43,035 nucleotides of DNA, taken from positions 1-43,035 of the forward strand of contig JAEUOG010000065.1 in the NCBI GenBank assembly GCA_016790815.1. Direction: 5' to 3'. The translations under genes were made by a program, and so were the position numbers. The notes below the pieces were generated by a model. That model did no database searches. It saw only the letters and a program-made list of their open reading frames with translations, and was not told where the DNA came from. This document shows, piece by piece, positions 3,793-32,717 of the stretch (position 1 is the stretch's first letter; every line of letters begins with the position of its first letter). This DNA comes from Dechloromonas sp. (lineage in GTDB: Bacteria; Pseudomonadota; Gammaproteobacteria; Burkholderiales; Rhodocyclaceae).

Positions 3793-3825
3793 TCAATTTT
3801 GCCTCATTTTCACAGTTGACCGCAG
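3793..3825 (-). repeat. Dispersed CGGTCAACCGG/GGCCAAAATT repeat, copy 6 (inverted orientation)
   Basis: Read on the minus strand this copy gives GCTGCGGTCAACTG, then TGAAAATGA, then GGCAAAATT. It matches both blocks of the family, with changes in the right half of block 1 and one base missing from block 2. It lies between the convergent 3' ends of mgtE and gdx and is the most divergent copy but one. Confidence 0.55.
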
Positions 3826-3846
3826 CAAACAGGTCGTCAGTGAAAC

Positions 3847-4185
3847 TCAGTGCGAATCCGGCGTCAGGAGCTTGAGGCCGACAATGCCGGCCACGATCAG
3901 CCCGATGCTCACCAGCCGCGCAACTTCCTTCGATTCACCGAACAGGAATATGCCGAGAATCGCCGTGCCGACGGCGCCGATGCCCGTCCAAACAGCGTAG
4001 GCCGTGCCCAGCGGCAGCACTTTCAGTGACCAGCCGAGCAGGACGACGCTGGCTGTCATCGCCACCAGCGTTGCGACCGATGGCCACAGCCGGCTGAACC
4101 CTTCCGTGTACTTCAGTCCGACCGCCCAGCCGATCTCGCAGAGACCGGCAATGAGCAGGATCAGCCAGGCGGAACCCGTGCTCAC
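3847..4185 (-). CDS. gdx: Guanidinium exporter of the SMR family (SugE/Gdx)
   Basis: A four-helix small multidrug resistance protein of 112 residues, working as an antiparallel dimer in the inner membrane. The first helix carries the essential Glu in [18 protein letters not shown], and SRLWPS follows. This GLKYTEGF...LWPS pattern is the one that marks guanidinium exporters (Gdx, formerly SugE) rather than EmrE-type multidrug pumps. Later helices include [19 protein letters not shown]. The start is a GTG at 4185 whose bases overlap the hemL stop as GTGA, so translation is probably coupled to hemL. There is no room for a guanidine riboswitch directly upstream. Substrate is inferred from family motifs only. 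Confidence 0.9.
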
Positions 4186-5465
4186 TTGAGGGTGGCGAAG
4201 TAAGCGTCGGCGGCGGCGATGGTCGCAGCGATGTCGGCGTCGGAATGGGCTGCCGAGACGAAGCCGGCTTCAAAGGCCGACGGTGCGAAGTAATGGCCGG
4301 CGTCGAGCATGGCGTGGAAGAAGCGGTTGAAGGCTTCCTTGTCGCAGGCCAACACTTCGTCGTAGGTGCCCGGGCACTTCTCGGCGAAATAGAGGCCGAA
4401 CATGCCGCCGATGTTCTGGGCGCTGAAGGCGATGCCGTGCTTCTTCGCGGCGCCGACCAGACCGTCGCACAGCGCCTTGGTCTTGGTGGTCAGCGTTTCG
4501 TAGAAACCGGGCGCCTGAATGAGCTTGAGGGTCGCCAGACCGGCCGCCGTGGCGATCGGGTTGCCGGACAGCGTGCCGGCTTGATAAACCGGGCCGAGCG
4601 GGGCGATCTGTTCCATGATTTCGCGCTTGCCGCCGAAGGCCCCGAGCGGCATGCCGCCGCCGACCACCTTGCCGAAAGTGGAGAGGTCCGGCGTGATGCC
4701 GAACAGGCCCTGCGCGCTCTTCAGGTCGACGCGGAATCCGGTCATCACTTCATCGAAAATCAGCACGGAACCGTTTTTCGTGCACAGTTCACGCATGGCG
4801 TTCAGGAAGGCTTGGGTCGGGGCGATCAGGTTCATGTTGCCGACGACCGGCTCGACAATGACGGCGGCGATCTTGTCGCCGTGCTTGGCGAAGGCATCGG
4901 CCAGTTCCTGCGGATCGTTGTAGGTGAGCACCATGGTGGTTTCGGCGGTGCCGGCCGGGACGCCGCCGGAGGACGGATTGCCGAAGGTCAGCAGGCCGGA
5001 GCCAGCCTTGACGAGCAGGCCGTCGGAGTGGCCGTGGTAGCAGCCTTCGAACTTGATCAGGATGTCGCGGCCGGTATAACCGCGCGCCAGGCGGATGGCG
5101 CTCATCGTCGCCTCGGTGCCCGAGGAAACCAGACGGACCATGTCCATCGACGGCACCAGTTCACAGAGCAGATCGGCGATGTCGACTTCCTTCTCGGTCG
5201 GCGCACCGAAGGACAGGCCGTCGACGACGGCGGCCTGAACGGCTGCGATGACTTCCGGATGGGCGTGGCCAAGGATCATCGGGCCCCACGAACCAACGTA
5301 ATCGGTGTACCACTTGCCGTCCGCATCCTGCACTTTGGGGCCAACGCCCTTCTGGAAGAAACAGGGCGTGCCGCCGACCGAGCGGAAGGCGCGGACGGGT
5401 GAATTGACGCCGCCCGGGATGTGGCGCTGGGCACGTTCGAAAAGTTGCTGGTTGCGGGAGGTCAT
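4182..5465 (-). CDS. hemL: Glutamate-1-semialdehyde 2,1-aminomutase
   Basis: A PLP enzyme that converts glutamate-1-semialdehyde to 5-aminolevulinate, the last C5-pathway step before haem and other tetrapyrroles. From [19 protein letters not shown] the protein is 427 residues, the usual HemL length. The PLP Schiff-base lysine is Lys266 in [34 protein letters not shown] and [10 protein letters not shown] are the other aminotransferase class III landmarks. An upstream extension of the frame to 5771 is only thiE read in another frame. The ATG overlaps the thiE stop (ATGA), and the stop overlaps the gdx start, placing hemL third in thiD-thiE-hemL-gdx. Confidence 0.97.
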
Positions 5466-6106
5466 GACAGGGCTTCCTCGAAAAGACGTTGGTAGGCAGT
5501 AGCGCGCGCCGCGATGTCGGGCGTGCTGAACAGGTCGGTGATGACGGCGAGCAGGTCGGCGCCGGCAGCGATGAGCGGCGGTGCGTTGTCCAGCGTGATG
5601 CCGCCGATGGCGCAGCTTGCTGCGGTCAACAGGGTTTTTGCATCGAAAAACAAATCGGTTCCGGCGAGTGGTGCCTTCGGTTTGGTTGGCGACGGATAGA
5701 CGGCACCGAAGGCAACGTAATCGACCCCGGCCGCCGTTGCAGTTTGTGCGGCAGCGAAGTCGGCGTAGCACGAGGCACCGAGAATGCGCTTGGGGCCGAG
5801 CATGGCGCGGGCCGCCATGAGGTTGCCGTCATCCTTGCCCAGATGCACGCCGTCAGCATCGACGAGAACGGCCAGCGCCAGATCGTCGTTGATCAGCAGT
5901 TTTGCATTGTGACGTCGGGTCAGTTCGCGTAGTGCCCGGGCGCGCGCGACGCATTCGGGCATCGCACTGGTCTTGTCGCGGTATTGAATGATGCGGCAAC
6001 CGCCGCTCAGGGCGGCTTCGACGGCGCGCAGCAGGCGGTTGCCGTCGGCATGTTCCGGGGTGATGGCGTAAAGGCCGCGCAACTCAGGTTTCGTCTGATT
6101 TGCCAT
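5462..6106 (-). CDS. thiE: Thiamine-phosphate synthase
   Basis: Joins HMP-pyrophosphate to the thiazole phosphate to give thiamine phosphate. The TIM-barrel protein is 214 residues from [16 protein letters not shown], normal for ThiE. Family motifs visible are [47 protein letters not shown] and AIGGITLDN. The frame stays open to 6361, but the extra N-terminus is thiD in another frame. The first 23 bases overlap the 3' end of thiD and the stop overlaps the hemL start. The neighbours support co-expression of HMP-P kinase and ThiE. Confidence 0.95.
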
Positions 6107-6965
6107 CTGCCTTCTCATCCTTGTTCTCGCCAGCCTCATCATCGCCACCGCGCGCCCAGAAAAAGCGGTCAGGGATGAATTGACCCATCCCCGCACGGAA
6201 GCCGGCGGCCAGTGCCTGCCAAGTGTAATCCTGGGCGTCGCGAACGGCATCTTCCATGCTGGCGCCGCCGGCGATGCAGCCAGCGATGGCCGAAGCCAGT
6301 GTGCAGCCGGAGCCATGGTAGCTGCCTGGCAGGCGTTCCCACTCGTCGCGCCGGATGACACCTTCGGCGCCGTAAAGCGTGTTGACCACTTGTGGCGTGT
6401 TCTCGTGCGTACCCGTGATCAGCACGTATTGCGCACCCATTTCGATCAGGCGCTGGGCGCACACATCTATCGACGGCTCGCCTTCGTCTTCGTCGTTTTC
6501 GGCCAGTCGCCTCGCTTCCGGTGCGTTCGGCGTGAGCAAGGTCGTCTGCGGCAGCAACATCTCGCGGATCGCCGAAATGACATCCTCACCCGACAACTCG
6601 TCGCCACGCCCGGAAGCCAGCACCGGGTCGAAAATCAGGGGGGTCTCTGGATAATCGGAAACGATTTCGGCAACGGCCAGCACATTCTCGACGCTCCCCA
6701 GCATGCCGATCTTGAAGGCGGCCACCGGCATGTCCTCAAGCACGGCGCGCGCTTGTTGCTCTACTAGGTCGGCGCTCACTGCCTGGACATTTTGGACGCC
6801 GACCGTATCCTGAACTGTGACAGCTGTCAGGGTGCTGAGCGGATGGCACCCCAGGCTGGCCAGGGTGAGCATGTCTGCCTGCATGCCAGCACCGGCTGAC
6901 GGGTCGCTTGCTGAGAAGACGAGCACCATCGGCGGACAGGGTGGGTTGGCGGCAGAAGGATTCAT
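6084..6965 (-). CDS. thiD: Hydroxymethylpyrimidine/phosphomethylpyrimidine kinase
   Basis: A ribokinase-fold enzyme that phosphorylates HMP-P to HMP-PP for ThiE. Evidence: [16 protein letters not shown] at the substrate site, [27 protein letters not shown] and the catalytic [14 protein letters not shown] near residue 215. At 293 residues it is about 25 longer than typical ThiD; the excess is a highly charged tail ([15 protein letters not shown]) that overlaps the thiE start and probably has no catalytic role. It is the first gene of thiD-thiE-hemL-gdx and is transcribed away from pilG. The leader appears too short for a TPP riboswitch, and I see none. Confidence 0.95.
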
Positions 6966-7016
6966 CGGTATTCGCGCCCTTGGCGGGAGCGAAGGGAATT
7001 GGGTAAGATGACCGGG

Positions 7017-10637: not shown

Positions 10638-13600
10638 ATGAACGCGGCAACGGAATTTGATTTAGGCCCGCTGACGTGGGTCAAGGGTGAAATAGACCTG
10701 GCCTTGCAGCGCGCCGAGCAGGCGCTGAACGAGCATGAGGCGACTGCCGATCGGACGAAGCTCAAGTTCTGCCGGACGCATGTGCACCAGGTGCACGGTG
10801 CGCTGGCCATGGTTGGCCTGGACGGGGTCACCCTGTTGACGGAGTCTGCAGAGGCCTTGCTTTCCGGGATGGAAGAGGATCGACTGCCCTCCGGAGACTC
10901 GGCGGTTGCGGTTTTGCGTCAGACGCTCAGTGCTCTGCATCAATATCTTGATGACCTGATGGCTGGCGAGCCCAATCAGCCGCTCGTGTTGCTGCCCGTC
11001 TATCAGTCGCTTGAGGTTGCGCGCGGCTTGGCGGGGGCGCATCCCTGCGACCTGTTTTATCCGGATCTCGCCAAACGCCCGCCAAAGCGCGTGCTTGAGG
11101 GGGCGGTGCTCGATTCTGAGGAATTGTTGCGCACCCTCAAAGTTAAGCGAATGCAGTTCCAGAAAGGCATGCTGGGCTGGCTGAAAAACCCGGCCGAGGG
11201 AGAAGCTGCGCGCCGACTGATGTGCGAGGCTGTCGCTGACATCGAAGGGGCGCAGCCGACACCCGTTGCGCGCTCGTTCTGGTGGATATCGCTGGGCGTA
11301 CTCGATGCGCTGGCAGACCCCGTGCTTGGCGCCGATCCATTGGCGCGTCAACTGTGTTCCCGTATCGATGCCCAGATACGGCGTCTGGTCAGTGGCTCGA
11401 ACAATGTTGCGGAGCGTGTTCTGCGCGAGTGCCTGTATTTCGTTGCCCAGGCGCCGGCAAGGCTTAGCACGCGAATCGCTGAGCTTCAGTCGGTATTCAA
11501 TCTGGCTGCCTTGCTCCCAAGTGCGACGCCGCAAACCGCGCCGCTGCCGCATCACAGCGAGTTGCGCCGATTGCGCGAAACGCTGGCCTCAGCCGAAGAT
11601 CTCTGGAACCGGTTTTGTACCGGCAATGCTGGCAGTCTGGCCGGCTTTGCCGATAGTGTGCGCCAGTGTGCGCAGTTGACCGGGGATATCGGCCAGACTG
11701 ATCTTAAACGCCTTGGTCAGGGATTGGGTGCCGTCGCCAACTGGCTGTCTGAAGACGCTACCCGCTTCAATGACGGGGTTGCCATGGAAGTGGCGACCAC
11801 CGTCCTGTTGCTTCAGAATGCGCAGGAGAACTTCCGGCGCCTGGGTACCGATTTCGCCCAGCAGGTGGACCTCATGGTGGCCCGCCTTTACGCCTGTATC
11901 GCCGGCAGGCCGGTAGCCGACGAGGGCATTCCGCTGCTCGACGAGATGAGCCGGCGAGCTCAGGAAAAGCTGTTGATCGGTCAGGTCGGTCGCGAGATAC
12001 AGCACAATCTGGGTCAGATCGAACAGGCGCTAGACGGATTCTTCCGTGATCCGACCAAGGGGCACGATCTGCTCCAGGTTGATGCACCTATCAAGCAGAT
12101 CAGCGGGGCGCTGGCCATGCTTGGCCATTTTGGCGCGGTCAGCAAGCTCAAGGAGTGTGCCGCAAGCATCCAGCGATTCGCCCAACCGGACTATCAACCG
12201 GTCAGTGAGGATTTCGAGGCAGTGGCGAACCAGTTGTCCCTGCTCGGCTTTTTTGTGGACTCGCTGCAAAACGGCGAAACCGATTTCAATGCCTTCGTGC
12301 GTCGCATGAGTGGTGCGGTATCGGCCGGGCAGGCGGAGGAGCACGAGGCGACTGCCGCACCGACGGTTGAGGTTCTTCTAGCACAACAGACGCGCGACAC
12401 GCAGATACTTGCCGACGCGCTCAAGGAAGCGCCGCAGGATGTCCGCCTGCAGGATGAGCTCAAGCAGAATCTGCAAAGTATCCAGAAGGATGCCGATCTG
12501 GTCGCTGACCGCGAACTGGGTGAGTCGGCCAAGGCGGCCCTGGCAGCGCTGCAAACAGGCATCGAGTTCGATCCCACTTTGTCCGGCTTCATGCCCGTCA
12601 CCCACGCTCCTTCTGCTGAAACCCTGCAGCTTGCGGAGTCAACGCACGAAGAGATTGACGCCGAGTTGCTATCGATCTTCCTGGAAGAAGCCAACGAGGT
12701 CCTGGCTAGCATTGGCGAGCAGAAAGCCCTGCTGGCAAGCAACCCGGCCAACGTCGAGGCATTGACCACGGTCCGGCGTTCCATGCATACCCTGAAGGGC
12801 AGCGGCCGGATGGTTGGGCTCAAGGATCTTGGTGAAGTGGCATGGGAACTGGAACAGACACTCAACTTGTGGTTGCGCCAGGATACGGTGGTAACGCCCG
12901 ATCTGCAGCGCATGATCGACGCCGCCCATGCGTTGTTTTCGGACTGGGTCGTCGTTCTTGAATCAGGAAGGGGCGCTGCGCCCGACTCGGGCGCTGTGGT
13001 CGCGCAGGCGGCCCGTCTTCGGGGCGTCGAAACGCCGGCAGTGGCCGCGCCTGAAGTTCAGCCCGATGCCATTGTCGAGGCGCCGTTACAGATTGCCGAG
13101 CCTGTCGAGTTGGAGGCTGAAGCACAGCTTGAGGGGGTGACGGGGCAGGACGACCGGGCTATCGATGACGTAGAAGCGGTGCTGGAGTGGGACGAAGCAT
13201 TGCCTGCATTGCAGACTGAGGCGCGCGAACTGGCTGATCAGACCTCTGATGTGGCTGCCGATAGTCCCTTGGGCTACGCAAGTCTGGAACATCTGGGCTT
13301 GTCTGCCCAGGAGCCGGAAACCATCGAGATTGAAGCGCTGCCAGAAGAGCCGGCAATGTCCTGGGAGCCGGACGAGGCAATGCTGCGGTCGACGCCGGAA
13401 AAAGAGCCAATTTCGCCGGTTTCGCCACCGCCCGCCGCGCCGACGCTTTACGACATATTCCGCGAAGAGGCCCGGGGTCACCTGCAAACGCTGGTCGACA
13501 GCTATGCGCTCATTGATGCCAATCCGGCGGCCCCGACCACCTTTGAGATGACGCGTGCTGCCCACACCTTGGGCGGGATTGCGGCAACGGTTGGCCTGAT

Positions 13601-16172: not shown

Positions 16173-16198
16173 CCCGAATCCCCGGTTGACCCTGGCAT

Positions 16199-16230
16199 CC
16201 CACGGTCAACCGGAAACAATGGCTAATTTT
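16199..16230 (+). repeat. Dispersed CGGTCAACCGG/GGCCAAAATT repeat, copy 1
   Basis: Reads CCCACGGTCAACCGG, then AAACAAT, then GGCTAATTTT. Block 1 is also the right arm of a perfect 10-bp hairpin: CCGGTTGACC at 16182-16191 pairs with GGTCAACCGG at 16204-16213. The copy lies between the convergent ends of pilL and phrB and covers the phrB stop codon. No T-tract follows on the plus strand; the minus strand has short T runs before the stem instead. Confidence 0.75.
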
Positions 16231-17629
16231 TAAGTATGGCGTAGCGCGCCAGGGTCTTTTCCCGAGCCGCCGCATGCTCGACGATCGGCGCCGGGTAGTC
16301 CCGCCCGATCATCACCCCGATGCTCTCCTGCTCGATGCGCCCCATTTGCCACGGGGCGTGGATATATTTGTTGGCCACTTTCGCCAGTTCGGGCACGTAG
16401 CGGCGGATGAACTTGCCGTCCGGGTCGAAGCGCTCGGACTGCGTTACCGGATTGAAAATGCGGAAATACGGTTGCGCGTCGCAGCCGGTCGAGGCCGCCC
16501 ATTGCCAGCCGCCATTGTTGGCGGAAAGGTCGAAATCGTTGAGCTGCTCGGCAAAATAGCGCTCGCCGAGCCGCCAGTCGATGCCCAGATCCTTGCTCAG
16601 AAATGATGCGACGATCATGCGTAGCCGGTTGTGCATCCAGCCGCTGTGGTTAAGCTGGCGCATCGCGGCATCGACGAGCGGAAAGCCGGTGCGCCCTTCC
16701 TTCCATGCGGCCAGGCCGGCCGGCCAGTCGTCCCACTGCACCGCATCGTAGGCCGGCTTGAAAGCGCTGCCGACGACGTGCGGGAAGTGGTCGAGGATCA
16801 TGAAATAGAAGTCACGCCAGATCAGCTCGTTGAGCCAGGTCGTGTCCTTCGCATTCAGCGCACTGCGAACCAGTTCACGAATGCCGATGGTACCGAAGCG
16901 CAGGTGTACCGACAAATAGGAAACACCCTTGACCGCCGGGAAGTCGCGTAGCGCGCCATAGCGCTCGATACGTCCCTGGCGGAACTCGTCCCACAAGGCG
17001 CGGGCGCCCGACATGCCGGGGTGAATACCCAGGACCTCCAGATCGGTCGGGTCGAAGCCGATGTCAGCTAGTTTTGGGATGCCCGCCAACTCGCCGCCGG
17101 CTAGTTGTCCACGGCAAGGCCATTCGGCACAATCTGCTGCGGTCAACCGCTTCAACCAGGCATTTTTGTAGGGTGTGAATACGGAGAATGGCTTGCCTGT
17201 CTGGGTCAGCACTTCATTGCCGTCGAAGACGGCCTGATCCTTGAAAGCGTGAAATTCGATGCCTTCCGTTTTCAGCATTTCGGCGACGAGCGCATCACGC
17301 TGCTTGGCTGCGGGTTCGTAATCGCGGTTGGCAAACACCGCCGCCACGCCGAGTTCCCTGGCAAGCGAGGATATTTCGTTGGCCGCACGGCCGTGGCGAA
17401 CGATCATCCCACCACCCTTGGCGCACAAGGCGGCATCGAGCTCAACCAGAGATTCGCGAATGAAATGAACGCGCCGGTCACGCCGGCTGGGCAGCGCATC
17501 GAGAATTTCGCTATCAAAAATAAAGGCGCAGTAAACCTGTTGCGCCCCGGCCAGCGCCGCACTCAGCGCTGCGTGATCTTGGTCGCGCAGGTCGCGGCGA
17601 AACCAGACGAGGGCTTTTTCTTTTTTCAT
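16223..17629 (-). CDS. phrB: Deoxyribodipyrimidine photolyase (class I CPD)
   Basis: A light-driven enzyme repairing cyclobutane pyrimidine dimers with FAD. The 468-residue length is typical. The N-terminal alpha/beta antenna domain starts [16 protein letters not shown]. The C-terminal FAD domain has [34 protein letters not shown], the signature [20 protein letters not shown] and [15 protein letters not shown]. The start ATG at 17629 has AAAAAGAAAAAG upstream rather than a clear GGAGG. It is probably monocistronic, divergent from yqgE and convergent with pilL. Confidence 0.95.
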
Positions 17630-20122: not shown

Positions 20123-21370
20123 ATGAACATCGAAATCAAGAGCGGCCGCGTAATTGACCCGAAAAACGGCGTCGACCGCAGCACATCGCTGTACATCGCC
20201 GATGGCAAGGTTGCCGGACTCGATGCGTCGCCGGCAGGCTTCGTCGCCGACCATACCATCGACGCCACCGGCTGCGTGGTCTGCCCAGGCCTGATCGACC
20301 TCGGCGCCCGCCTCAACTCCATCGAGGCGGAACTGGCTGCGGCCGTCGCCGGCGGCGTGACCTCCGTCGTCGTGCCGCCCGATGCCGATCCTCCGCTCGA
20401 CGAGCCCGAGCTGGCCGACCGACTGGTCCATCGTGGCACCGAAATCGGCAAGGCGCGCGTGCTGCCGCTGGGCGCCCTGACGCTGGGCCTCAATGGCGAG
20501 CGCCTGGCCGAACTGGCCGGCCTCAAGAAGGCGGGTTGCGTCGCCTTCTCGCAGGCCAATCGACCGGTCACCGACACCGAAGCCCTGCTTCGCGCCATGG
20601 AATATGCAGCCACCTTCGGTTTTGCCATCTGGCTGCAACCGCAGGATTACTGGCTGTCGCGCAACGGTATCGCCCATGAAGGCGAAGTCTCCAGCCGTCT
20701 CGGTCTGGCCGGCATTCCGGTTGCAGCCGAAACCATCGCTGTCGGCACCATCGTCCAGCTCGTGCGCGATACCGGCTGCCGTGTGCATCTGACCCGCCTG
20801 TCGTCAGCTGCCGGCGTGGCGCTCGTTCAGCGTGCGCAGAATGAAGGTCTGCCGGTTACCTTCGACGTTGGCGTGCATCATCTGCTGCTCACCGAGAACG
20901 ATATTGGCTACTTCAACCCGCACGCCCGTTTCAGTCCGCCGCTGCGTGCCCAAAGCGATCGCAAAGCGCTCTCGGAGGCCGCGGCCGCTGGGCTGGCCGC
21001 CATCTGTTCCGACCACACGCCGGTCGGCGCCGACGACAAGTTGCTGCCCTTTGGTGAAGCCAAGCCGGGGGCGACCGGGCTGGAAGTCTTGCTGCCGCTG
21101 ACCCTGAAATGGGCGGAAGAAACCGGCGTCAGTCTGCCCGATGCGCTGGCCCGCATCACCTCGGCGCCGGCTGCTGTTCTCGGCCTGCCGAGTGGTCAAC
21201 TGGGCATCGGCGCCGCAGCCGATATTTGTATTTTCGACGCCGAAGCGACCTGGCAACTGACGCCGGAAGCTCTCAAGAGCCGCGGCAAGAATTCGCCATG
21301 GACCGGCTACATGATGACCGGCAGGGTGAAATCCACGCTGGTTGGTGGACGCGTCGTTTTTCAGGCGTAA
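20123..21370 (+). CDS. pyrX: Non-catalytic dihydroorotase-like ATCase partner (PyrC'/PyrX)
   Basis: An amidohydrolase-fold protein of 415 residues, most like type I dihydroorotase. The metal-binding HxH that should follow PGLIDL is replaced: CPGLIDLGARLNSIEAELA. Other parts remain, such as GVHHLLLTENDIGYFNPH and AICSDHTPVGADD. Loss of HxH is the known hallmark of PyrC' (PyrX), a structural partner needed for ATCase assembly in pseudomonads and some betaproteobacteria. Its position 4 bases after pyrB fits this. A catalytic pyrC must then exist elsewhere. The start at 20123 is chosen over an in-frame codon at 20105 because GGGGAAC precedes it. Convergent with yggU. Confidence 0.9.
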   Translation: MNIEIKSGRVIDPKNGVDRSTSLYIADGKVAGLDASPAGFVADHTIDATGCVVCPGLIDLGARLNSIEAELAAAVAGGVTSVVVPPDADPPLDEPELADRLVHRGTEIGKARVLPLGALTLGLNGERLAELAGLKKAGCVAFSQANRPVTDTEALLRAMEYAATFGFAIWLQPQDYWLSRNGIAHEGEVSSRLGLAGIPVAAETIAVGTIVQLVRDTGCRVHLTRLSSAAGVALVQRAQNEGLPVTFDVGVHHLLLTENDIGYFNPHARFSPPLRAQSDRKALSEAAAAGLAAICSDHTPVGADDKLLPFGEAKPGATGLEVLLPLTLKWAEETGVSLPDALARITSAPAAVLGLPSGQLGIGAAADICIFDAEATWQLTPEALKSRGKNSPWTGYMMTGRVKSTLVGGRVVFQA

Positions 21371-21388
21371 AGGGCCGGTTGGCCCATT

Positions 21389-21420
21389 CCCGCGGTCAAC
21401 CGGAAAAAATGGCCAAAATT
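21389..21420 (+). repeat. Dispersed CGGTCAACCGG/GGCCAAAATT repeat, copy 2 (best match)
   Basis: Reads CCCGCGGTCAACCGG, then AAAAAAT, then GGCCAAAATT. A left arm CCGGTTGGCC at 21375-21384 pairs with GGTCAACCGG through one G-T wobble, giving a 10-bp stem as in copy 1. It lies between the convergent 3' ends of pyrX and yggU. Confidence 0.75.
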
Positions 21421-23808: not shown

Positions 23809-24852
23809 ATGGACATCACCGAACTGCTGGCTTTCAGCGTCAAGAACAAAGCCTCCGACTTGCACCTGTCTGCCGGCTTGCCGCCGATGATTCGGGTGCA
23901 TGGCGACGTCAGGCGCATCAACCTGCCAGCCATGGAGCATAAGGATGTTCATGGCATGGTCTATGACATCATGAACGATGGCCAGCGCAAGGTGTACGAA
24001 GAGACGCTGGAGTGCGATTTTTCATTCGAAATCCCCAATCTGGCGCGTTTCCGGGTTAATGCCTTCAATCAGCATCGCGGTGCCGGTGCTGTGTTCCGGA
24101 CCATTCCGACCAAGGTTCTGACACTCGAAGAGTTGAACTGCCCGAAGATTTTCAAGGAAATTTCCGAGTATCCGCGTGGCATCGTGCTGTGCACCGGGCC
24201 GACGGGTTCCGGCAAATCGACGACGCTGGCGGCGATGGTCAATCATGTCAATGAAAACGATTACGGTCACATCCTGACGGTCGAGGATCCAATCGAATTC
24301 GTGCACGAATCGAAAAAGTGCCTGATCAACCAGCGCGAAGTCGGGCCGCATACGCTGTCGTTCTCCAACGCCCTGCGCGCGGCCCTGCGTGAAGATCCGG
24401 ACGTCATCCTGGTCGGCGAAATGCGCGACCTCGAAACCATTCGTCTCGCCCTGTCCGCTGCTGAAACCGGCCACCTCGTATTCGGCACCCTGCACACCTC
24501 GTCGGCTGCGAAGACGGTTGACCGTATCGTCGATGTCTTCCCGGCGGCGGAAAAGGAAATGGTCCGCTCAATGTTGTCCGAATCGCTGCGTGCGGTCATT
24601 TCGCAGACGCTCATGAAAACCAAGGACGGTTCCGGGCGGGTCGCGGCGCACGAGATCATGATCGGCACCCCGGCCATCCGCAATTTGATCCGCGAAAACA
24701 AGGTCGCCCAGATGTATTCGGCGATTCAGACCGGCCAGAACTTCGGCATGCAGACGCTGGATCAGAACCTCGTCGATCTGGTACGGCGCAATGTCGTGTC
24801 GAGTGCGGAAGCGCGCTTCCGGGCAGCCAACAAGGACACCTTCCCGGCTTGA
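23809..24852 (+). CDS. pilT: Type IV pilus retraction ATPase PilT
   Basis: A hexameric cytoplasmic ATPase that depolymerises the pilus for twitching motility, phage entry and DNA uptake. The 347-residue length is typical. Walker A is GPTGSGKST at residues 130-138; VEDPIEFVHE is the Asp box, LVGEMRDLETIRLAL the Walker B, and GHLVFGTLHTSSA the His box. The C-terminal AIRNLIRENK motif is the one needed for retraction in PilT. The N-terminal module starts MDITELLAFSVKNKASDLHLSAG. Followed by pilU 34 bases later. Confidence 0.97.
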   Translation: MDITELLAFSVKNKASDLHLSAGLPPMIRVHGDVRRINLPAMEHKDVHGMVYDIMNDGQRKVYEETLECDFSFEIPNLARFRVNAFNQHRGAGAVFRTIPTKVLTLEELNCPKIFKEISEYPRGIVLCTGPTGSGKSTTLAAMVNHVNENDYGHILTVEDPIEFVHESKKCLINQREVGPHTLSFSNALRAALREDPDVILVGEMRDLETIRLALSAAETGHLVFGTLHTSSAAKTVDRIVDVFPAAEKEMVRSMLSESLRAVISQTLMKTKDGSGRVAAHEIMIGTPAIRNLIRENKVAQMYSAIQTGQNFGMQTLDQNLVDLVRRNVVSSAEARFRAANKDTFPA

Positions 24853-24886
24853 TCCGGGTGCTTGAAAAAATACACGAGGGGAAAGA

Positions 24887-26023
24887 ATGGAACGCGATCA
24901 GGCAATGAAATTCATGCACGATCTTTTGCGCCTGATGTCGCAGAAAAAAGGATCCGATCTGTTCATTACGGCCGGTTTCCCGCCGGCGATCAAGATCGAC
25001 GGCAAGATTACGCCGGTATCGAACCAGATTCTGACGCCGCAGCATACGGCCGAACTCGCACGCGCCATCATGAACGACCGTCAGGCTGCCGAGTTCGAGG
25101 CAACCAAGGAGTGCAATTTCGCCATTTCGCCGGCCAGCATCGGCCGTTTCCGGGTCAATGCGCTGGTCCAGCAGGGTCGGGTCGGGGTGGTCTGCCGTAC
25201 GATCAACATGACTATCCCCACCCTGGACGAGTTGCTTTTGCCGCCGGTCCTCAAGGATCTGGCGATGACGAAGCGCGGACTGATCATCTTCGTTGGCGGC
25301 ACCGGTACCGGCAAGACGACTTCGTTGGCGGCGCTGGTCGATTACCGCAACGAAAACTCCTATGGCCACATCATCACGATCGAAGATCCCATCGAGTATG
25401 TGCACGATCACAAGAACTGCATCGTGACGCAGCGCGAGGTCGGGGTCGATACCGATGACTGGGCGCCAGCCCTGAAAAACACGTTGCGCCAGGCGCCGGA
25501 CGTCATCCTGATGGGTGAGATCCGCGACCGTAACACCATGGACTACGCGATCGCATTCGCCGAAACCGGCCACCTTTGTCTGGCCACCCTCCACGCAAAC
25601 AGCGCCAATCAGGCAATCGACCGGATCATCAACTTCTTCCCGGAAGAGCGTCGCCAGCAATTGCTCATGGATCTCTCGCTCAACCTGCGCGCCATGGTGT
25701 CGCAACGCCTGCTCCCCAAGAAGGATGGCAAGGGGCGGATGGCTGCGATCGAGGTGATGCTCAACTCGCCGCTCATTTCCGACCTGATCTTCAAGGGCGA
25801 TGTCCACGAGATCAAGGAGATCATGAAGAAATCCCGCGAACTTGGCATGCAGACCTTCGACCAGGCGCTTTTCGATCTCTACGAGGCCGGCAAGATCACG
25901 TACGAAGATGCGTTGCGTAACGCCGATTCGCTGAACGACCTGCGTCTGCAGATCAAGCTGAATGGCAAGGAATCGAAGGACCGTGATCTATCGACCGGCA
26001 TCGGTCACCTCGACATCGTTTGA
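24887..26023 (+). CDS. pilU: PilT-dependent retraction ATPase PilU
   Basis: The PilT paralogue (378 residues) that assists retraction under load. Start motif is KGSDLFITAGFPPAIKIDG. Walker A is GGTGTGKTT at residues 137-145, with IEDPIEYVHDHKNC, LMGEIRDRNTMDYAIAFAETGH and LATLHANSANQAIDRI. The sequence after Walker B and the long C-terminal part mark it as PilU rather than a second PilT. GAGGGGAAAG precedes the ATG at 24887. Co-transcribed with pilT; the DUF4197 gene follows at 18 bases. Confidence 0.95.
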   Translation: MERDQAMKFMHDLLRLMSQKKGSDLFITAGFPPAIKIDGKITPVSNQILTPQHTAELARAIMNDRQAAEFEATKECNFAISPASIGRFRVNALVQQGRVGVVCRTINMTIPTLDELLLPPVLKDLAMTKRGLIIFVGGTGTGKTTSLAALVDYRNENSYGHIITIEDPIEYVHDHKNCIVTQREVGVDTDDWAPALKNTLRQAPDVILMGEIRDRNTMDYAIAFAETGHLCLATLHANSANQAIDRIINFFPEERRQQLLMDLSLNLRAMVSQRLLPKKDGKGRMAAIEVMLNSPLISDLIFKGDVHEIKEIMKKSRELGMQTFDQALFDLYEAGKITYEDALRNADSLNDLRLQIKLNGKESKDRDLSTGIGHLDIV

Positions 26024-26041: not shown

Positions 26042-26731
26042 ATGCGCCGCATGATGAAAGCCGTTTTTGCCCTTTCTTTCACGTTGACCGCAGCACTGGC
26101 TCAGGCCGGCGCACTCGATGCCATTTCAAGCGGCGATGCCAGCGCCGGTGTCAAGGAGGCGCTGGCCAAGGGCGCCGACTACGCTGTTTCCTCCCTTGGC
26201 AAGAGCGGTGGCTTCATGGGTAACGACAAGGTCAAGATCAAGCTGCCGGGTTATCTGGAAAAGGCCGATTCGGCGCTGCGCATGTTCGGCATGGGCAAGC
26301 AGGCCGACCAGCTGGTCGAAACGATGAATCGTGCGGCCGAAAATGCCGTTGCCGAAGCCAAGCCCATCCTCACCGATTCGATCAAGAAGATGAGCGTCAA
26401 GGATGCCAAGGATATCCTGACGGGCGGCGAGGACAGCGTGACGCAATATTTCAAGCGCTCATCCACGGATCAGCTGACTGCCAAGTTCAAGCCCATCGTC
26501 AAGAAGGAAACCGCCAAGCTCAAGCTGGCCGACCAGTACAACAAGTTTGCCGGCAAGGCCGCCAGTGCGGGACTCGTCGATAAGCAGAACGCTGATGTCG
26601 ATAGCTATGTGACGCAGAAGGCCATGGATGGCCTCTTCCTGATGATTGCGGAAGAAGAGAAGAAGCTACGCGCCAACCCGATGGGTGCTGGCAGCGATCT
26701 GCTCAAGAACGTTTTCGGCGCCCTGAATTAA
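26042..26731 (+). CDS. Exported DUF4197 family protein
   Basis: A 229-residue protein with a clear signal peptide (MRRMMKAVFALSFTLTAALAQAG, cut probably after AQA). The mature part matches the DUF4197 family: IKLPGYLEKADSALRMFGMG, ADQLVETMNRAAENAVAEAK, ILTGGEDSVTQYFKRSS and KAMDGLFLMIAEEEKKLR. Function is unknown in the family. GGAGACAGCC is the ribosome site. It sits 18 bases after pilU and may share its transcript, but nothing shows a role in pili. Confidence 0.88.
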   Translation: MRRMMKAVFALSFTLTAALAQAGALDAISSGDASAGVKEALAKGADYAVSSLGKSGGFMGNDKVKIKLPGYLEKADSALRMFGMGKQADQLVETMNRAAENAVAEAKPILTDSIKKMSVKDAKDILTGGEDSVTQYFKRSSTDQLTAKFKPIVKKETAKLKLADQYNKFAGKAASAGLVDKQNADVDSYVTQKAMDGLFLMIAEEEKKLRANPMGAGSDLLKNVFGALN

Positions 26732-26756
26732 AGTCGTTTGAATTAAATGCCGTAAT
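26729..26756 (+). promoter_or_regulatory. Sigma-28 (FliA)-like promoter
   Basis: TAAAGTCG (26729-26736) and GCCGTAAT (26749-26756) are separated by 12 bases. The FliA consensus is TAAAGTTT, 11 bases, GCCGATAA; the conserved TAAAG and GCCG halves are exact and the spacing is one longer. It begins at the DUF4197 stop codon and would transcribe the small gene at 26775. Confidence 0.45.
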
Positions 26757-26774
26757 TGGGGCAAGGAGTCCCCA

Positions 26775-27092
26775 ATGAAACTGACCAGTTTGTCTAGTAC
26801 CACGCAACAACCCACTCGCGTATCGAGTGAGCGCGTGCGTCCGCTCGACAATGAACGGATCAGGCGGGTTGAGGTCATGGAAGGCATCGAAGGAGATCGC
26901 CAGCGCAGCCTGATGCAGGAGATCGCCGAGATAGAGCCCGCTGCCGTAGGCGATTTTCATGGCGAAGAGCGCGTTATGCAGGGCGCGCGCGAGGTGGCGG
27001 CACAATTGCTGGAAATGGACGTCGGCACGGACAGCCTGATCAAGCCCGGTGTGGCTCTGGACCGCCTGATAGGCATCGACGACACCGTTTGA
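26775..27092 (+). CDS. Unrecognised small protein, 105 residues
   Basis: I do not recognise this family. The protein has no signal peptide or membrane helix, is rich in Glu, Arg and Val, and appears mostly helical after a Ser/Thr-rich N-terminus (MKLTSLSSTTQQPTRVSSE). The C-terminal half (ERVMQGAREVAAQLLEMDVG) could form a helix pair. Coding is supported by AAGGAG six bases before the ATG, lying in the loop of a small GGGG/CCCC hairpin (26758-26773), and by a sigma-28-like promoter just upstream. A flagellar or motility-regulated role is suggested only by that promoter. Repeat copy 3 follows the stop. Confidence 0.7.
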   Translation: MKLTSLSSTTQQPTRVSSERVRPLDNERIRRVEVMEGIEGDRQRSLMQEIAEIEPAAVGDFHGEERVMQGAREVAAQLLEMDVGTDSLIKPGVALDRLIGIDDTV

Positions 27093-27100
27093 CGCGCCTT

Positions 27101-27131
27101 CCACGGTCAACCCGAAAAAACGGCCAATATT
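27101..27131 (+). repeat. Dispersed CGGTCAACCGG/GGCCAAAATT repeat, copy 3
   Basis: Reads CCACGGTCAACCCG, then AAAAAAC, then GGCCAATATT. GTTTGAC at 27088-27094 pairs with GTCAACC apart from one mismatch, giving a weaker stem than copies 1 and 2. It lies 9 bases after the unknown gene and its right end reaches the -35 area of the rep promoter. Confidence 0.7.
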
Positions 27132-27150
27132 CACATCTGCCGCCCTGAGT

Positions 27151-27212: not shown

Positions 27213-29204
27213 ATGTCCGGCCTCAATCAACCGCAACGCCAAGCGATCCACTACCTCGACGGCCCCCTGCTGGTGCTGGCTGGTGCCGGCTCGGGCAAGA
27301 CGCGGGTGATCACGCAAAAAATCGCCTATCTGGTGCAGAGCTGCGGCTTCAATCCGCGGAATATCGCCGCCATCACCTTCACCAACAAGGCCGCGAAGGA
27401 AATGCAGGAGCGCATCGGCAAGCTGCTTTCCAAGCAACAGGCCGACGAGTTGCAGATTTCGACGTTTCATTCGCTCGGCGTGCGCATCCTGCGCGAAGAA
27501 GCCAGGGCGCTGGGCTACAAGCCGCGCTTCTCGATTTTCGATTCGGCCGATTGCGCCGGCATCATTGGCGATGCAGCCGGGACGGTCGACAAGGCGACGC
27601 TGCGTATCGTCCAGTCGACCATTTCCAACTGGAAAAACGGGTTGATCTCACCCGAGGCTGCGCGCCACCTCGCCATCGACGAACATCAAAAGCTCGCCGC
27701 CCACGCCTTCCTGTCCTACGAAGCGACGCTCAAGGCCTATCAGGCAGTCGATTTCGATGACCTCATCGGTCTGCCGGTCAAGCTGTTCAGCGAGCATCCG
27801 GAAATCGCCGACAAGTGGCAGAACCGCCTGCGCTACCTGCTGGTCGATGAATACCAGGACACCAACGCCTGCCAGTACCAGTTGCTCAAGCTGCTGACCG
27901 GCGTCCGCGCCCAGTTTACGGCGGTGGGCGACGACGACCAGGCGATCTACGGCTGGCGTGGCGCCGACATCGAGAATCTCAAGAAGCTGCCGACCGAGTT
28001 TCCCGCCTTGAAGGTCATCAAACTCGAGCAAAATTACCGGTCGACCGTAAGAATCCTCAAGGCCGCCAACAACGTCATCTCACACAACGAAAAGCTGTTC
28101 GACAAGAAGCTGTGGTCCGATCTCGGCCACGGCGAACAGATTTCCGTGACCGCCTGCCGTGACAACGACGCCGAGGCTGAAGGCGTGGTCATGAAACTGC
28201 AGGCGCACAAGTTTGAGCATCGCGCCAAGTTCAAGGATTACGCCATCCTGTACCGCTCTAACCACCAGGCCCGGATTTTCGAGGAGTATCTGCGCGACCA
28301 CCGTATCCCCTACCTGCTGTCGGGCGGAAAATCCTTTTTCGACAAGGCAGAAATCAAGGACATCACGGCCTACCTGCGTCTCCTCGCCAACGAAGACGAC
28401 GACCCGGCTTTCATCCGCGCCGCCACCACGCCCAAGCGCGGCATCGGCGCGGCAACGCTGCAGGTGCTCGGCATCTATGCCGGCGAGCGCCATGTCTCCC
28501 TGTTCCAGGCTGCCTTTGAAGAGGGCTTTGCGCACCGCGTCCAGCACCGTCAACTCGAACCTTTGCTCGAATTCTGCAACTTCATCAACCGTACCCAGTT
28601 CAGGGCCACGAAGGAGCCGGCGCATCAGGTTCTGCCTGATCTGCTCAAGGCCATCGACTACGAAACCTACCTCTACGACCACGAAGAGGAGCGCACGGCG
28701 CAGACGCGCTGGGCCAATGTCTGTGAATTCGCCAACTGGCTCAACAAGAAAGGAGAGCTCGACGACAAGACGCTGGTTGATCTGACCCAGAGCATTGCGC
28801 TCATCAACATGCTCGACAAGCAGAACGACGAAGATTATGACGCCGTGCAGTTATCCACCCTGCACGCGGCCAAGGGGCTGGAATACAAACATGTGTTCCT
28901 GGTCGGCGTCGAGGAAGGCATCCTGCCGCACCGCGAATCGGTCGATCCCGTCAAGCTCGAGGAAGAGCGACGCCTCATGTATGTTGGCATCACACGCGCT
29001 CAATACACGCTGAACATCTCCTACTGCGAACGTCGTAAACAGGCCCGCGAATTCGTTCCCTGCGAGCCGTCACGCTTCATCGACGAAATGGGCAAGGAAG
29101 ATGTGCGATTCTCCGGCGGCAAGCAGGATGCCCCGCCCAGCAAGGCTACCGGCAGTGCCCGCCTTGACGCCATGAAGGCCATGCTGGCTGGAAACAAGCG
29201 CTAA
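27213..29204 (+). CDS. rep: ATP-dependent DNA helicase Rep (UvrD/Rep family)
   Basis: A superfamily 1A 3'-5' helicase of 663 residues, the right size for Rep. Motifs: Q-motif LNQPQRQAIHY, Walker A GAGSGKTRVI (about residue 24), motif Ia ITFTNKAAKEMQERI, motif II LLVDEYQDTN, motif III AVGDDDQAIYGWRGAD, motif IV LEQNYRST, motif V STLHAAKGLEYKHVFLVGVEEGILPH, motif VI EEERRLMYVGITRAQ. The DDDQAIYGWRGA form of motif III and the length favour Rep over UvrD. Rep helps replication forks pass protein blocks. Confidence 0.94.
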   Translation: MSGLNQPQRQAIHYLDGPLLVLAGAGSGKTRVITQKIAYLVQSCGFNPRNIAAITFTNKAAKEMQERIGKLLSKQQADELQISTFHSLGVRILREEARALGYKPRFSIFDSADCAGIIGDAAGTVDKATLRIVQSTISNWKNGLISPEAARHLAIDEHQKLAAHAFLSYEATLKAYQAVDFDDLIGLPVKLFSEHPEIADKWQNRLRYLLVDEYQDTNACQYQLLKLLTGVRAQFTAVGDDDQAIYGWRGADIENLKKLPTEFPALKVIKLEQNYRSTVRILKAANNVISHNEKLFDKKLWSDLGHGEQISVTACRDNDAEAEGVVMKLQAHKFEHRAKFKDYAILYRSNHQARIFEEYLRDHRIPYLLSGGKSFFDKAEIKDITAYLRLLANEDDDPAFIRAATTPKRGIGAATLQVLGIYAGERHVSLFQAAFEEGFAHRVQHRQLEPLLEFCNFINRTQFRATKEPAHQVLPDLLKAIDYETYLYDHEEERTAQTRWANVCEFANWLNKKGELDDKTLVDLTQSIALINMLDKQNDEDYDAVQLSTLHAAKGLEYKHVFLVGVEEGILPHRESVDPVKLEEERRLMYVGITRAQYTLNISYCERRKQAREFVPCEPSRFIDEMGKEDVRFSGGKQDAPPSKATGSARLDAMKAMLAGNKR

Positions 29205-30325: not shown

Positions 30326-30346
30326 ACGGCCTGACGCCGTGACTGA

Positions 30347-30476: not shown

Positions 30477-30522
30477 TAACTAAATGTGGCTGAGCCGCGC
30501 AGCCAGTCAAAAGAACGGGCGT

Positions 30523-30557: not shown

Positions 30558-30583
30558 TGATGGCCACAGGCTGGGTCTGCGGG

Positions 30584-30766: not shown

Positions 30767-30808
30767 GGCTGTTCTCGATTTATGGACAATTATGGTTACT
30801 GCGGCGCG

Positions 30809-30836
30809 AGTATAGCCATATTTTGCTGCGGTGCAA
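30809..30836 (-). promoter_or_regulatory. Promoter of the 60-residue gene
   Basis: On the minus strand TTGCAC (30836-30831), 16 bases, TATACT (30814-30809). Both boxes are close to consensus. RNA would start near 30802. Confidence 0.55.
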
Positions 30837-30885
30837 TATCGGTCTTCCACAGGTTTTTCGCGAATTTTGGGTGAGCTTGCCGTGC

Positions 30886-31482
30886 TCAGCTATTCGCGAG
30901 ATCGTCCAGCGTATTGAAATTACCGAAGGCTGGACCTTGGTCGGAAAAATCTACCTCGATGGCACCCATCTCGGCACACCATGCGGCTACCTTGCGGCTA
31001 CCGCTCGCGAGATAGGCTTCCAGTTCTCCATGCAGCGTGCGGCGGCACAGGCAGAAAACCGGGTGCAGGCGCTCGCCAGCCCGGGCGATCGCCATGTTTG
31101 CATTGGCGCGCTGCAGGGCGCCATGCATCCTGCTGGCCAGATCGAGTGGCAGTCTGGGTGAGTCACAGGGGGCGGTGAGCACGAGCGGGGTGCTGGCAGC
31201 GCTCAGGGCTGCGTGCAGGCCGGCCAGTGGTCCGGCAAAGCCGGGGATATGGTCGGCCAGCAATGGATATCCGAACGCCGCGTACTCAGTTTTGCTGCGA
31301 TTGGCGTTGATCAGCAGGTTGTCCACCTGGGGAGCCAGGCGGTTGGCAACGTGCCAGACCAGTGGTTTTCCAGCGTAGAGTTGTAATCCCTTGTCTACGC
31401 CACCCATGCGTGTTCCTAGTCCGCCTGCAAGGATGACGCCAGTAATCAGTTCGTGAACTTCGGGTGATGTCGGGGTGGGCAT
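30886..31482 (-). CDS. mobA: Molybdenum cofactor guanylyltransferase MobA
   Basis: Attaches GMP to molybdopterin to form the bis-MGD cofactor of DMSO-reductase-family enzymes such as nitrate or (per)chlorate reductases. The 198-residue protein has the nucleotide loop VILAGGLGTRMGGVDKGL, LVWHVANRL, LLINANRS, PLAGLHAAL and TAPCDSPRLP. These are the MobA motifs in normal order. It is divergent from the cinA-type gene with only 31 bases between start codons. No moe/moa genes are nearby. Confidence 0.94.
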   Translation of the reverse strand: MPTPTSPEVHELITGVILAGGLGTRMGGVDKGLQLYAGKPLVWHVANRLAPQVDNLLINANRSKTEYAAFGYPLLADHIPGFAGPLAGLHAALSAASTPLVLTAPCDSPRLPLDLASRMHGALQRANANMAIARAGERLHPVFCLCRRTLHGELEAYLASGSRKVAAWCAEMGAIEVDFSDQGPAFGNFNTLDDLANS

Positions 31483-31513
31483 TGGTTGTTGGTCACATGC
31501 TAGGATTGGGATT

Positions 31514-32014
31514 ATGTCTGAACTGGAAACGCTTGCCGAACGTCTTGGCCGCCTGCTGATCGAGCGGGGTGAGTGGCTGGCGGCTGCCGAGTCGTGTACG
31601 GGCGGCTGGCTTGCCCAGTCGGTGACGGCGATTGCCGGCAGCTCGACATGGTTCGACCGAGGGTTCGTTACTTATTCCAATGCTGCGAAGGTGGACATGC
31701 TTGGCGTTTCCGATAGTACGCTGGAGCGCCATGGCGCCGTTTCGGAATCCGTGGCACGGGCCATGGCTCAGGGTGTCCTGGATCACAGCCGGGCCGACTG
31801 GTCGGCGGCGATTACCGGCATAGCAGGGCCGAGCGGCGGATCGCCGGAAAAACCGGTGGGAACGGTTTGCTTCGCCTGGGCACGCAAGGAGGGCGGATGC
31901 GAGGCACAGACCTGTCATTTCAGCGGCGATCGGGCTTCAGTTCGTATGCAATCGGTGCGTTATGCGCTCAACGGCCTGATCGAACGCGTGGGATCGGCTG
32001 CCTATAGCGCTTGA
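31514..32014 (+). CDS. pncC: CinA C-terminal domain amidase (nicotinamide-nucleotide amidase type)
   Basis: A stand-alone CinA C-terminal domain of 166 residues, of the type that deamidates nicotinamide mononucleotide to nicotinate mononucleotide in NAD salvage. Motifs: AAESCTGGWLAQSVTAIAGSS with the catalytic Ser, FVTYSNAAKVDMLGV, AMAQGV, and AITGIAGPSGGSPEKPVGTVCFAW. The N-terminal MocF-like domain of full CinA is absent, as is usual in proteobacteria. The start at 31514 gives MSELETLAERLG; upstream in-frame codons fall in the mobA promoter region. An extended -10-like TGCTAGGAT lies at 31498-31506. Confidence 0.92.
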   Translation: MSELETLAERLGRLLIERGEWLAAAESCTGGWLAQSVTAIAGSSTWFDRGFVTYSNAAKVDMLGVSDSTLERHGAVSESVARAMAQGVLDHSRADWSAAITGIAGPSGGSPEKPVGTVCFAWARKEGGCEAQTCHFSGDRASVRMQSVRYALNGLIERVGSAAYSA

Positions 32015-32051
32015 GTGCCAAGCGTTTTTCCGGTTGTGCAGGGACATGGAG

Positions 32052-32140
32052 GGAGTTGCCTCGAATTGGCGATCCGGGGTTGAAGGCAAGATTGCCCTGT
32101 TCTCTGCTTGTCTCTTGCTTCAACAGGCTTCGAGGGCTCC
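32052..32140. repeat. Long imperfect hairpin between convergent genes
   Basis: Three nested arms: GGAG (32052-32055) with CTCC (32137-32140), CCTCGAA (32059-32065) with TTCGAGG (32129-32135), and GTTGAAGGCAAGA (32079-32091) with TCTTGCTTCAAC (32113-32124), the last with one bulged G. It starts about 38 bases after the pncC stop and ends 14 bases before repeat copy 4. No T-tract follows. Confidence 0.55.
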
Positions 32141-32153
32141 TGGAGCTCACCTT

Positions 32154-32184
32154 CCACGGTCAACCGGCAAATACGGCCAGATTT
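32154..32184 (+). repeat. Dispersed CGGTCAACCGG/GGCCAAAATT repeat, copy 4
   Basis: Reads CCACGGTCAACCGG, then CAAATAC, then GGCCAGATTT. There is no nearby left arm for block 1; instead the larger hairpin at 32052-32140 lies just upstream. The copy is 6 bases before the 3' end of the DUF302 gene (minus strand). Confidence 0.7.
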
Positions 32185-32190
32185 GTGCTC

Positions 32191-32631
32191 TTAATTTCCT
32201 GCTTCGGCAATGATTTCCCGGAGCAGTGGCGCGACGAGTGGTGCCGCAGCCCCGCTGGGTTGCCGATAGGATAGCCATGTGACGTTCTTTTCGCCCGGCA
32301 GGGTGTAGATCGAAATCGCGAAGGGGCAGAGTACGATGTTGTGCGGATCGAGTTCCATCATTTTTCGCGACAGACTGGCCGAGCAGAATTCGATGACTTC
32401 AGCCTGCCCGAATATCTGGCGCGTTGCCCCGAGATCGGCGCCGGTGCGATTCAGCATGTCAGCCATATGCGAGACGTAGTTGATCACCAGGCCGCGGTTT
32501 TCGATGGCCATGACAACGGCGTCGCGGGCATCAGCGAAGCTGCTGGCGATCTTTCTTTTGGCAATCCACTCTTCAGCCTGAGCGGAAGTGGCAGCAAGTG
32601 CGAAGCAGAGCAGAACGGTAGACCGGCGCAT
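32191..32631 (-). CDS. Exported DUF302 family protein
   Basis: A 146-residue protein with a signal peptide (MRRSTVLLCFALAATSAQA, cut before EEWIA). The mature domain matches DUF302: FADARDAVVMAIENRGLVINYVSHM, then AEVIEFCSASLSRKMMELDPHNIVLCPFAISIY and LSYRQPSG. DUF302 proteins are periplasmic and often lie near sulfur or respiratory genes, but their function is not defined. Here it is bracketed by direct copies 4 and 5 of the dispersed repeat, and is transcribed alone, 87 bases beyond the helicase stop. Confidence 0.88.
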   Translation of the reverse strand: MRRSTVLLCFALAATSAQAEEWIAKRKIASSFADARDAVVMAIENRGLVINYVSHMADMLNRTGADLGATRQIFGQAEVIEFCSASLSRKMMELDPHNIVLCPFAISIYTLPGEKNVTWLSYRQPSGAAAPLVAPLLREIIAEAGN

Positions 32632-32685
32632 GGGGATTTCTGTATTAGCAATATCTGATTGGGTTATTGTATGCGATGTCCGTCA

Positions 32686-32717
32686 CCTGCGGTCGACGCG
32701 GAAAAAAGGCCAATAAA
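32686..32717 (+). repeat. Dispersed CGGTCAACCGG/GGCCAAAATT repeat, copy 5 (divergent)
   Basis: Reads CCTGCGGTCGACGCGG, then AAAAAA, then GGCCAATAAA. Block 1 differs at two positions and block 2 at two. It ends one base before the stop codon of the SNF2 helicase, which is on the minus strand. Confidence 0.55.

Follow-up and report, generated by a model that had tools for sequence, protein, structure and literature searches.

In the part of a 2025 paper that was available to us, uptake sequences are credited only to the Pasteurellaceae and the Neisseriaceae (PMC12616744). According to the accessible portion of a further study, uptake signal sequences (USS) and DNA uptake sequences (DUS) occur about once per kb without orientation bias, show some regularity, prefer non-coding DNA with many copies nonetheless being coding, and are of mutational origin (PMC1626085). 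The same portion describes the USS as a core followed 3' by two A/T segments at about single-turn spacings; its forms include Hin AAGTGCGGT and Apl ACAAGCGGT (PMC1626085, PMC12616744). The DUS, judging from the excerpt of a third paper, forms dialects around an invariant inner core, with overlapping dyad pairs in one species (PMC3630211). Here, we describe a motif that recurs in a 43,035-nucleotide stretch of Dechloromonas sp. (the window; contig JAEUOG010000065.1, assembly GCA_016790815.1) and consists of a CGGTCRAC core and, downstream, two A/T tracts separated by about one helical turn. Its over-representation, dialects and architecture, together with substitution in place, the lack of clear polarity and its absence from the foreign DNA examined, suggest that it serves the Azonexus/Dechloromonas lineage (Rhodocyclales, Betaproteobacteria) as a DNA uptake signal sequence. 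This would be the third bacterial lineage with such a signal. We put the probability of this reading at about 0.8.

Like the Pasteurellaceae USS with its 9-10 bp core, the motif carries two A/T-rich segments on the 3' side, spaced by roughly one helical turn, and it shares with the USS a high density, no orientation bias, many coding copies, a mutational origin and, apparently, dialects by subclade. Regular spacing and non-coding enrichment, two further traits of the USS, are seen here in part of the genomes (spacing in two of five). Even core letters overlap, as GCGGTC in the form found in one relative (G007) and in part of the source genome (G000), and as CGGTC in all; this match to the GCGG inner core of the Pasteurellaceae is striking, but it could have arisen by convergence or by chance. 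Unlike the gammaproteobacterial USS, the motif resides in betaproteobacterial, GC-rich hosts (60-65%), its core extends to CGGTCRAC, is often palindromic and lacks the leading A of ANNNGCGGT, the first tract lies further from the core, and the presence of the motif is patchy inside one genus. The Pasteurellaceae USS proper, i.e., the 9-bp core ANNNGCGGT in a Pasteurellaceae host, was not what we found, as the core here is CGGTCRAC and the nearest named kin of this host lie in Azonexus/Dechloromonas within the Azonexaceae. With the DUS, the motif has in common the betaproteobacterial host, dialects around an invariant inner core and a dyad resembling the palindromic core. However, the DUS has no flanking segments, a CTG core and a known receptor, ComP, and CTG is not in the invariant core described here.

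The motif is strongly over-represented in five Azonexus/Dechloromonas genomes

A preliminary description of the window had listed six copies of a two-block repeat (copies 1-6, Table 1), and direct reading verified their positions and strands. In the source genome (2.54 Mb, 76% complete), CGGTCAACCGGNAAANANNGGCCA with up to three mismatches gave 150 matches and the reversed pattern none, far more than chance would give. Word z-scores were computed against a fifth-order expectation on 140-841 kb per genome. Motif words were the most over-represented 8-, 9-, 10- and 12-mers of G000, in 443 kb and then in 841 kb, with CGGTCAACCGGA occurring 47 times against 0.48 expected. The top 10- and 12-mers belonged to the motif in all five genus members sampled; the stretches sampled from G026 (60 kb) and Accumulibacter (36 kb) did not have motif words at the top.

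An iteratively trained profile, with its threshold set on a reversed-profile control (0-7 reversed matches per genome), yielded 349 matches in 841 kb of G000 against 7 with the reversed profile. The G026 profile, trained from 8 seeds, settled on a non-motif and was disregarded. Because many copies hold a perfect 10-bp palindrome, one place can score on both strands, and removal of such double counts left 332 sites in G000, or one per 2.53 kb; after deduplication the density ranged from one per 1.74 kb to one per 3.10 kb across five genomes. The G000 sites comprise 261 coding, 61 intergenic and 10 overlapping ones, classes that are approximate since genes were called by a crude longest-open-reading-frame (ORF) rule (92.7% of bases coding). 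The earlier statement that all copies are intergenic is true of the six and fails for the family. Within the window, the profile found 17 sites, 11 of them classed as coding, and the six copies seen by eye are the intergenic tip of a far larger family. They rank among the better matches and are located between genes, free of protein constraint.

Intergenic sites are about 2.5-fold enriched in G000 (61 of 332 in ~7% of bases). They are sparse between divergent genes and most enriched between convergent ones, with 26 sites against 11.4 expected. The same preference was seen in G002 (11 against 5.1 expected) and G010 (7 against 2.6 expected), and was missing in G029 and, with few sites, in G007. 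Strand totals were near even in five genomes (168/164, 117/113, 72/57, 46/52 and 34/30), and strand showed no significant correlation with GC skew in the contig stretches of these five (lowest p 0.078, G007). Spacing was more even than random in G000 (coefficient of variation 0.67 vs 0.92) and G002 (0.77 vs 0.90), and borderline in G010. An apparent excess of close pairs in '-+' arrangement was rejected, as nearly all were the palindromic core counted on both strands; true inverted pairs were few after correction. G029, G010 and G007 hold several inward-facing core pairs 38-41 bp apart, with the A/T tracts seemingly shared. Contig C3 of G010 (L208-L214) also shows strong over-representation of the tandem-like word GGATCAAGGATC beside the motif words.

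A conserved core with two A/T tracts is split into dialects

Alignment of 234 CGGTC[AG]AC sites (443 kb of G000) showed conservation from -8 to about +31 and little beyond ~40 bp, with the consensus T-g-C-T-R-CGGTCRAC-c-g-g-a-AAAA-a-n-ggcc-AAA-t-T-g-A. The core is centered at about +3.5 and the A/T tracts at about +13.5 and +24.5, i.e., at spacings of ~10 and ~11 bp, and the tracts are clear in G002 too. The core is common to all five genus members sampled and comes in three main dialect forms, namely TGCGGTCRAC in G007 and part of G000, CCACGGTCAACCGG in G002 and part of G000, which mixes two forms, and CACGGTCGACCGT in A. fungiphilus and G010. The letters flanking the core differ between close relatives. 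The variable core base is A, breaking the palindrome, in 185 of 332 G000 sites and 96 of 129 G002 sites.

The motif is abundant in about half of the genus members counted

A helicase gene of the window retrieves relatives named Dechloromonas and Azonexus, including A. fungiphilus DSM 23841 (Azonexaceae, Rhodocyclales), a named culture-collection strain that itself bears the motif. With a dialect-neutral pattern, 31 of 60 genus members were motif-rich (192-580 matches), 22 were near chance (<20; motif-poor) and seven lay between (23-67), with at most 10 matches in the reversed controls. The intermediates (G004, G006, G161, G181, G201, G202 and G203) fit either a signal eroding after uptake loss or weak or other dialects. 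Some entries are likely duplicates: G023 appears to be the same genome as G004, and G030 the same as G012 (same coordinates), and the helicases of GT-UBC and G172 are identical. In 118 genomes from 67 other genera of the family, a pattern for one dialect, which other dialects would escape, gave at most 25 matches, the top genome having a control of 7; within the genus the same pattern gave 350 (G000), 97 (G111) and 60 (G161).

Orthologue alignments point to substitution in place

For 260 coding sites, the surrounding protein was searched, and spanning alignments were obtained for 86 sites. After 59 of 274 best alignments had been dropped (site not spanned or <45% identity), 204 of the remaining 215 were gap-free across the site. 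Under a slightly different rule, which counted 205 gap-free alignments, motif-rich genomes showed the exact core at the same codons in 54 of their 94 alignments; the figures were 11 of 107 for motif-poor or outside genomes and none of four for intermediates. Mean amino-acid identity across the site was 0.85 in the outside set, many of whose rows come from one helicase gene and are not independent, against 0.58-0.79 in those motif-rich sets that had at least two rows. On the whole, these alignments suggest that sites form and dissolve by substitution under protein constraint, not by insertion. At the site in the helicase gene (28023), 25 of 25 orthologues lack a gap and three have the exact core (X1_MetaBAT.22, A. 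fungiphilus and STC_125). The site at 20154 is an exception to the pattern, with an indel in three of seven orthologues and the exact core in four of seven, two of these from motif-poor genomes. Indels among orthologues also make the coding call for the site just after pilU doubtful.

Motif-free inserts split comEC in two motif-rich genomes

ComEC is the uptake channel. In G002, the two halves of comEC (DUF4131; Competence plus Lactamase_B) lie 33.7 kb apart on one contig, separated by an island (C33:109611-143332; L336-L338) with a GC content of 0.515 against 0.61 in the flanks. It encodes a type ISP restriction-modification enzyme, a CHAT protein and a PolB-like polymerase, and holds no motif site in 33.7 kb against 12 in 46.3 kb of flanks (chance of 0/12 = 0.0014). 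Short inverted sequences near the island ends, TATTAAAACGT and ACGTTTTAATA, suggest a transposon. In G007, the N-terminal half of comEC lies on contig C17 (L340) and the C-terminal half on C10 (L341), each adjoining GC-poor DNA; here, ~15.6 kb of the GC-poor insert side hold no site against 10 in ~18.9 kb of flanks. As both comEC inserts are free of sites, the foreign DNA examined lacks the motif. From these sequences, the gene for the uptake channel appears to have been disrupted by mobile DNA in G002 and G007, and the available part of one paper reports mobile DNA hitting competence genes elsewhere (PMC4774983).

Two unusual pilin-like genes lie near each other in three genomes (L247, L250 and L251; L234, L243 and L242). 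The first of them, whose C-terminal end is conserved, is found in 49 of 51 genus members; in Pfam it gave N_methyl and weak T2SSG or LapA matches only.

Sites and neighboring genes in the window

Copies 1-3 sit between convergent ORFs, in agreement with the preliminary description. Block 1 fits best in copies 2-5 and more loosely in copies 1 and 6 (CGGTCAACTG, CGGTCGACGCGG). Hairpins had been assigned to copies 1 and 2; copy 2 indeed has a clear left arm, and copy 1 has imperfect arms only (19 nt, 74% complementary). The left arm, described as weak or missing elsewhere, is absent from copies 4 and 5 and reduced to one 9-nt pair 41 nt apart in copy 6, but copy 3 has a clear arm. As the preliminary description proposed, the copies form a repeat family whose two blocks are conserved regardless of the stem.

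An antisense ORF (26703-27134) containing copy 4 is probably not a gene, and the ORF 32191-32631(-) beside copy 5 had no NCBIfam match. The SNF2-type helicase beside copy 6 gave a far-below-cut-off match to the 'pilus expression-regulating Snf2' model. PilT/PilU ATPases are machinery of the kind used in DNA uptake, and both such genes of the window scored above the TIGR01420 cut-off. An Rfam scan of the window gave no family at gathering score.

Table 1 Motif sites and pilus ATPase genes in the window, with profile scores.
Feature	Position	Strand	Context	Score
Copy 1	3793..3825	-	Between convergent ORFs (MgtE-type transporter / SugE-like SMR transporter)	42.2
Copy 2	16199..16230	+	3' junction of convergent ORFs 10638-16172(+) and 16223-17629(-, photolyase)	35.8
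Copy 2 left arm	16168-16192	inverted	Itself a weak site	20.4
Copy 3	21389..21420	+	Between convergent ORFs (dihydroorotase / DUF167); 10-nt left arm 21375-21384	47.0
Copy 4	27101..27131	+	Upstream of Rep/UvrD-type helicase gene 27213-29204	44.9
Copy 5	32154..32184	+	Between ORF 31475-32014(+, nicotinamide-nucleotide amidase family) and ORF 32191-32631(-)	31.9
Copy 6	32686..32717	+	3' end of SNF2-type helicase gene 32719-35997(-)	30.3
Further site	767..791	+	Coding	22.6
Further site	2927..2951	-	Coding	17.3 (lowest among the 17)
Further site	5623..5647	+	Coding	31.2
Further site	13386..13410	+	Coding	31.2
Further site	17140..17164	+	Coding	26.0
Further site	20154..20178	-	Coding	22.2
Further site	26066..26090	-	Just after pilU; coding by crude ORF rule	36.2
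Further site	28023..28047	-	In helicase gene	30.5
Further site	39558..39582	-	Coding	34.8
Further site	42271..42295	-	Coding	35.2
Two PilT/PilU-family type IV pilus ATPase genes	23809..26023	+		

Discussion

Several observations weigh against an uptake signal. Within the sites, the A/T tracts are weaker in G029 and G007, where spacing is not more even than random either; strand counts by stretch are uneven in G002 at borderline significance (chi2 31.2, 20 df); and gaps are commoner at sites (11 of 215 alignments, 5.1%) than in control segments of the same width (26 of 1143, 2.3%). In favor of the signal, perfect copies outnumber single-mismatch copies in G002, where CACGGTCAACCG occurs 51 times against 33 for its 36 single-mismatch words combined and a second 12-mer gave 45/31; against it, they fail to do so in G000, G029 and G007; the 12-mer counts were 20/22 in G010, 28/44 in G029, and 47/70 and 39/97 in G000, and for 10-mers 75/79 at best (G002). 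A helicase tree built from 31 genus members (16 rich, 11 poor, four between) shows the rich label to be patchy, with nine changes against a shuffled mean of 10.7 and as few in 101 of 500 shuffles, and at least four of the nine are forced by well-supported branches. This patchiness rules against a single clean gain or clean clades; it reflects repeated loss, gain or exchange, which the helicase tree cannot tell apart.

ComEC was present in each of the 13 genomes searched, in keeping with an uptake signal, but motif-poor and outside genomes have it too, and it therefore does not discriminate. The motif-rich G002 and G007 with their split comEC may be non-competent now; the motif would outlive the loss of competence for some time. 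None of the receptor candidates tracks the motif: N_methyl pilins were compared in three genomes, ComP_DUS (PF16732) is carried by 21 of 22 genomes, motif-poor ones among them, the conserved pilin noted above (alignment A1) occurs in 49 of 51 and is missing from the motif-rich G186, and GspH/FimT, searched in 15 genomes, was not detected in the motif-rich G007 at E 1e-5. Finally, the open-access literature searched, with subscription papers and preprints outside its scope, gave no uptake or transformation result for the lineage. It gave none on 'uptake sequence(s)' for Dechloromonas or Rhodocyclales, none by title on 'natural transformation' for Dechloromonas, and none relevant by title for the motif letters among the matches listed.

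We considered which other role could account for these sites. HIP1 of cyanobacteria is a strictly palindromic core word that recurs many times in both coding and non-coding DNA. The motif described here resembles it in copy number and placement, in the perfect 10-bp palindrome of many copies, and in that ACGGTCGACCGT ranks first among the 12-mers of A. fungiphilus. A mostly palindromic, highly iterated motif of this kind, CGGTCGACCG, could be kept by DNA methylation, repair or chromosome organization with no role in uptake. We regard this as improbable, as the palindrome itself is not conserved at the variable core base, the two spaced A/T tracts extend to one side only, and the letters next to the core vary among close relatives; we know of no one-sided tracts or changing flank dialects in HIP1. 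A site for a nucleoid-organizing, replication- or recombination-directing protein (Chi-, KOPS- or matS-like) would suit the high density, the regular spacing in G000 and G002 and A-tracts that could bend DNA. It is quite improbable given the near-even strand totals and the lack of significant correlation with GC skew, both from contig stretches and not whole replichores, and a core chromosomal function is hard to square with near-chance counts in 22 of 60 congeners.

REP/BIME elements are extragenic and mobilized by RAYT transposases. Membership of the motif in a REP/BIME or MITE family dispersed by a transposase, RAYT or another, would fit its shortness, its high copy number, its best copies being intergenic and enriched between convergent genes, and the hairpins at copies 2 and 3. 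Y1/RAYT matches in five of 15 genomes (G010, G199, G195, G188 and G180), all motif-rich, with none in five motif-poor genomes, likewise speak for such a family and against an uptake signal, albeit in small numbers. Yet most copies are genic and gap-free against orthologues, half of the motif-rich genomes (five of ten, including the 76% complete G000) lack a Y1/RAYT match, and conservation hardly extends beyond ~40 bp, which makes this origin very unlikely. We find it just as hard to believe that the motif is chiefly a transcription terminator or mRNA 3'-end element. The gene-end preference in G000, G002 and G010 would agree with this role, but it is missing in G029 and G007, most copies are genic and in both orientations, and true inverted pairs are few. 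Furthermore, a scan of 15-33 kb for terminators with loops of 3-8, a range that leaves out copy 1, found 18 terminator-like sites, no more than in shuffles and none on a copy. By analogy, a minority of copies may double as terminators, as the consulted part of PMC12616744 describes for DUS and USS. Among the options raised in the preliminary description, a protein-binding site comes nearest to an uptake signal, though the protein would act outside the cell, while a REP-like element and a mainly mRNA 3'-end signal are both unlikely.

If the motif is an uptake signal, the CGGTCRAC core would be recognized at the cell surface by a receptor belonging to the transformation machinery, for which a minor type IV pilin is the likeliest class by analogy, and the downstream A/T tracts would help the duplex to kink for passage through the outer membrane. 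Motif-bearing fragments would then be preferentially taken up and recombined, and this bias would convert sequences close to the motif into full copies where they stand, through point substitutions and chiefly at places where the protein allows the change. It also seems reasonably probable to us that this is a third lineage recognizing its own DNA at uptake, with a signal that evolved independently of the Pasteurellaceae and has the same anatomy (a GCGGT-like core plus two A/T segments spaced by helical turns). Within one genus, this signal would have split into dialects and been lost several times, and in some motif-rich species mobile islands would have interrupted comEC.

As only two families have been credited with uptake sequences, needed and inherited traits cannot be told apart. 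If true, our reading would provide an independent replicate in GC-rich betaproteobacteria, in which the A/T segments look like a mechanical need and not a family quirk. With 31 motif-rich and 22 motif-poor genomes in one genus, the receptor becomes a tractable target for comparisons of gene presence. An uptake signal would also predict natural transformation in a group that, according to the source text available to us, is studied in wastewater treatment.

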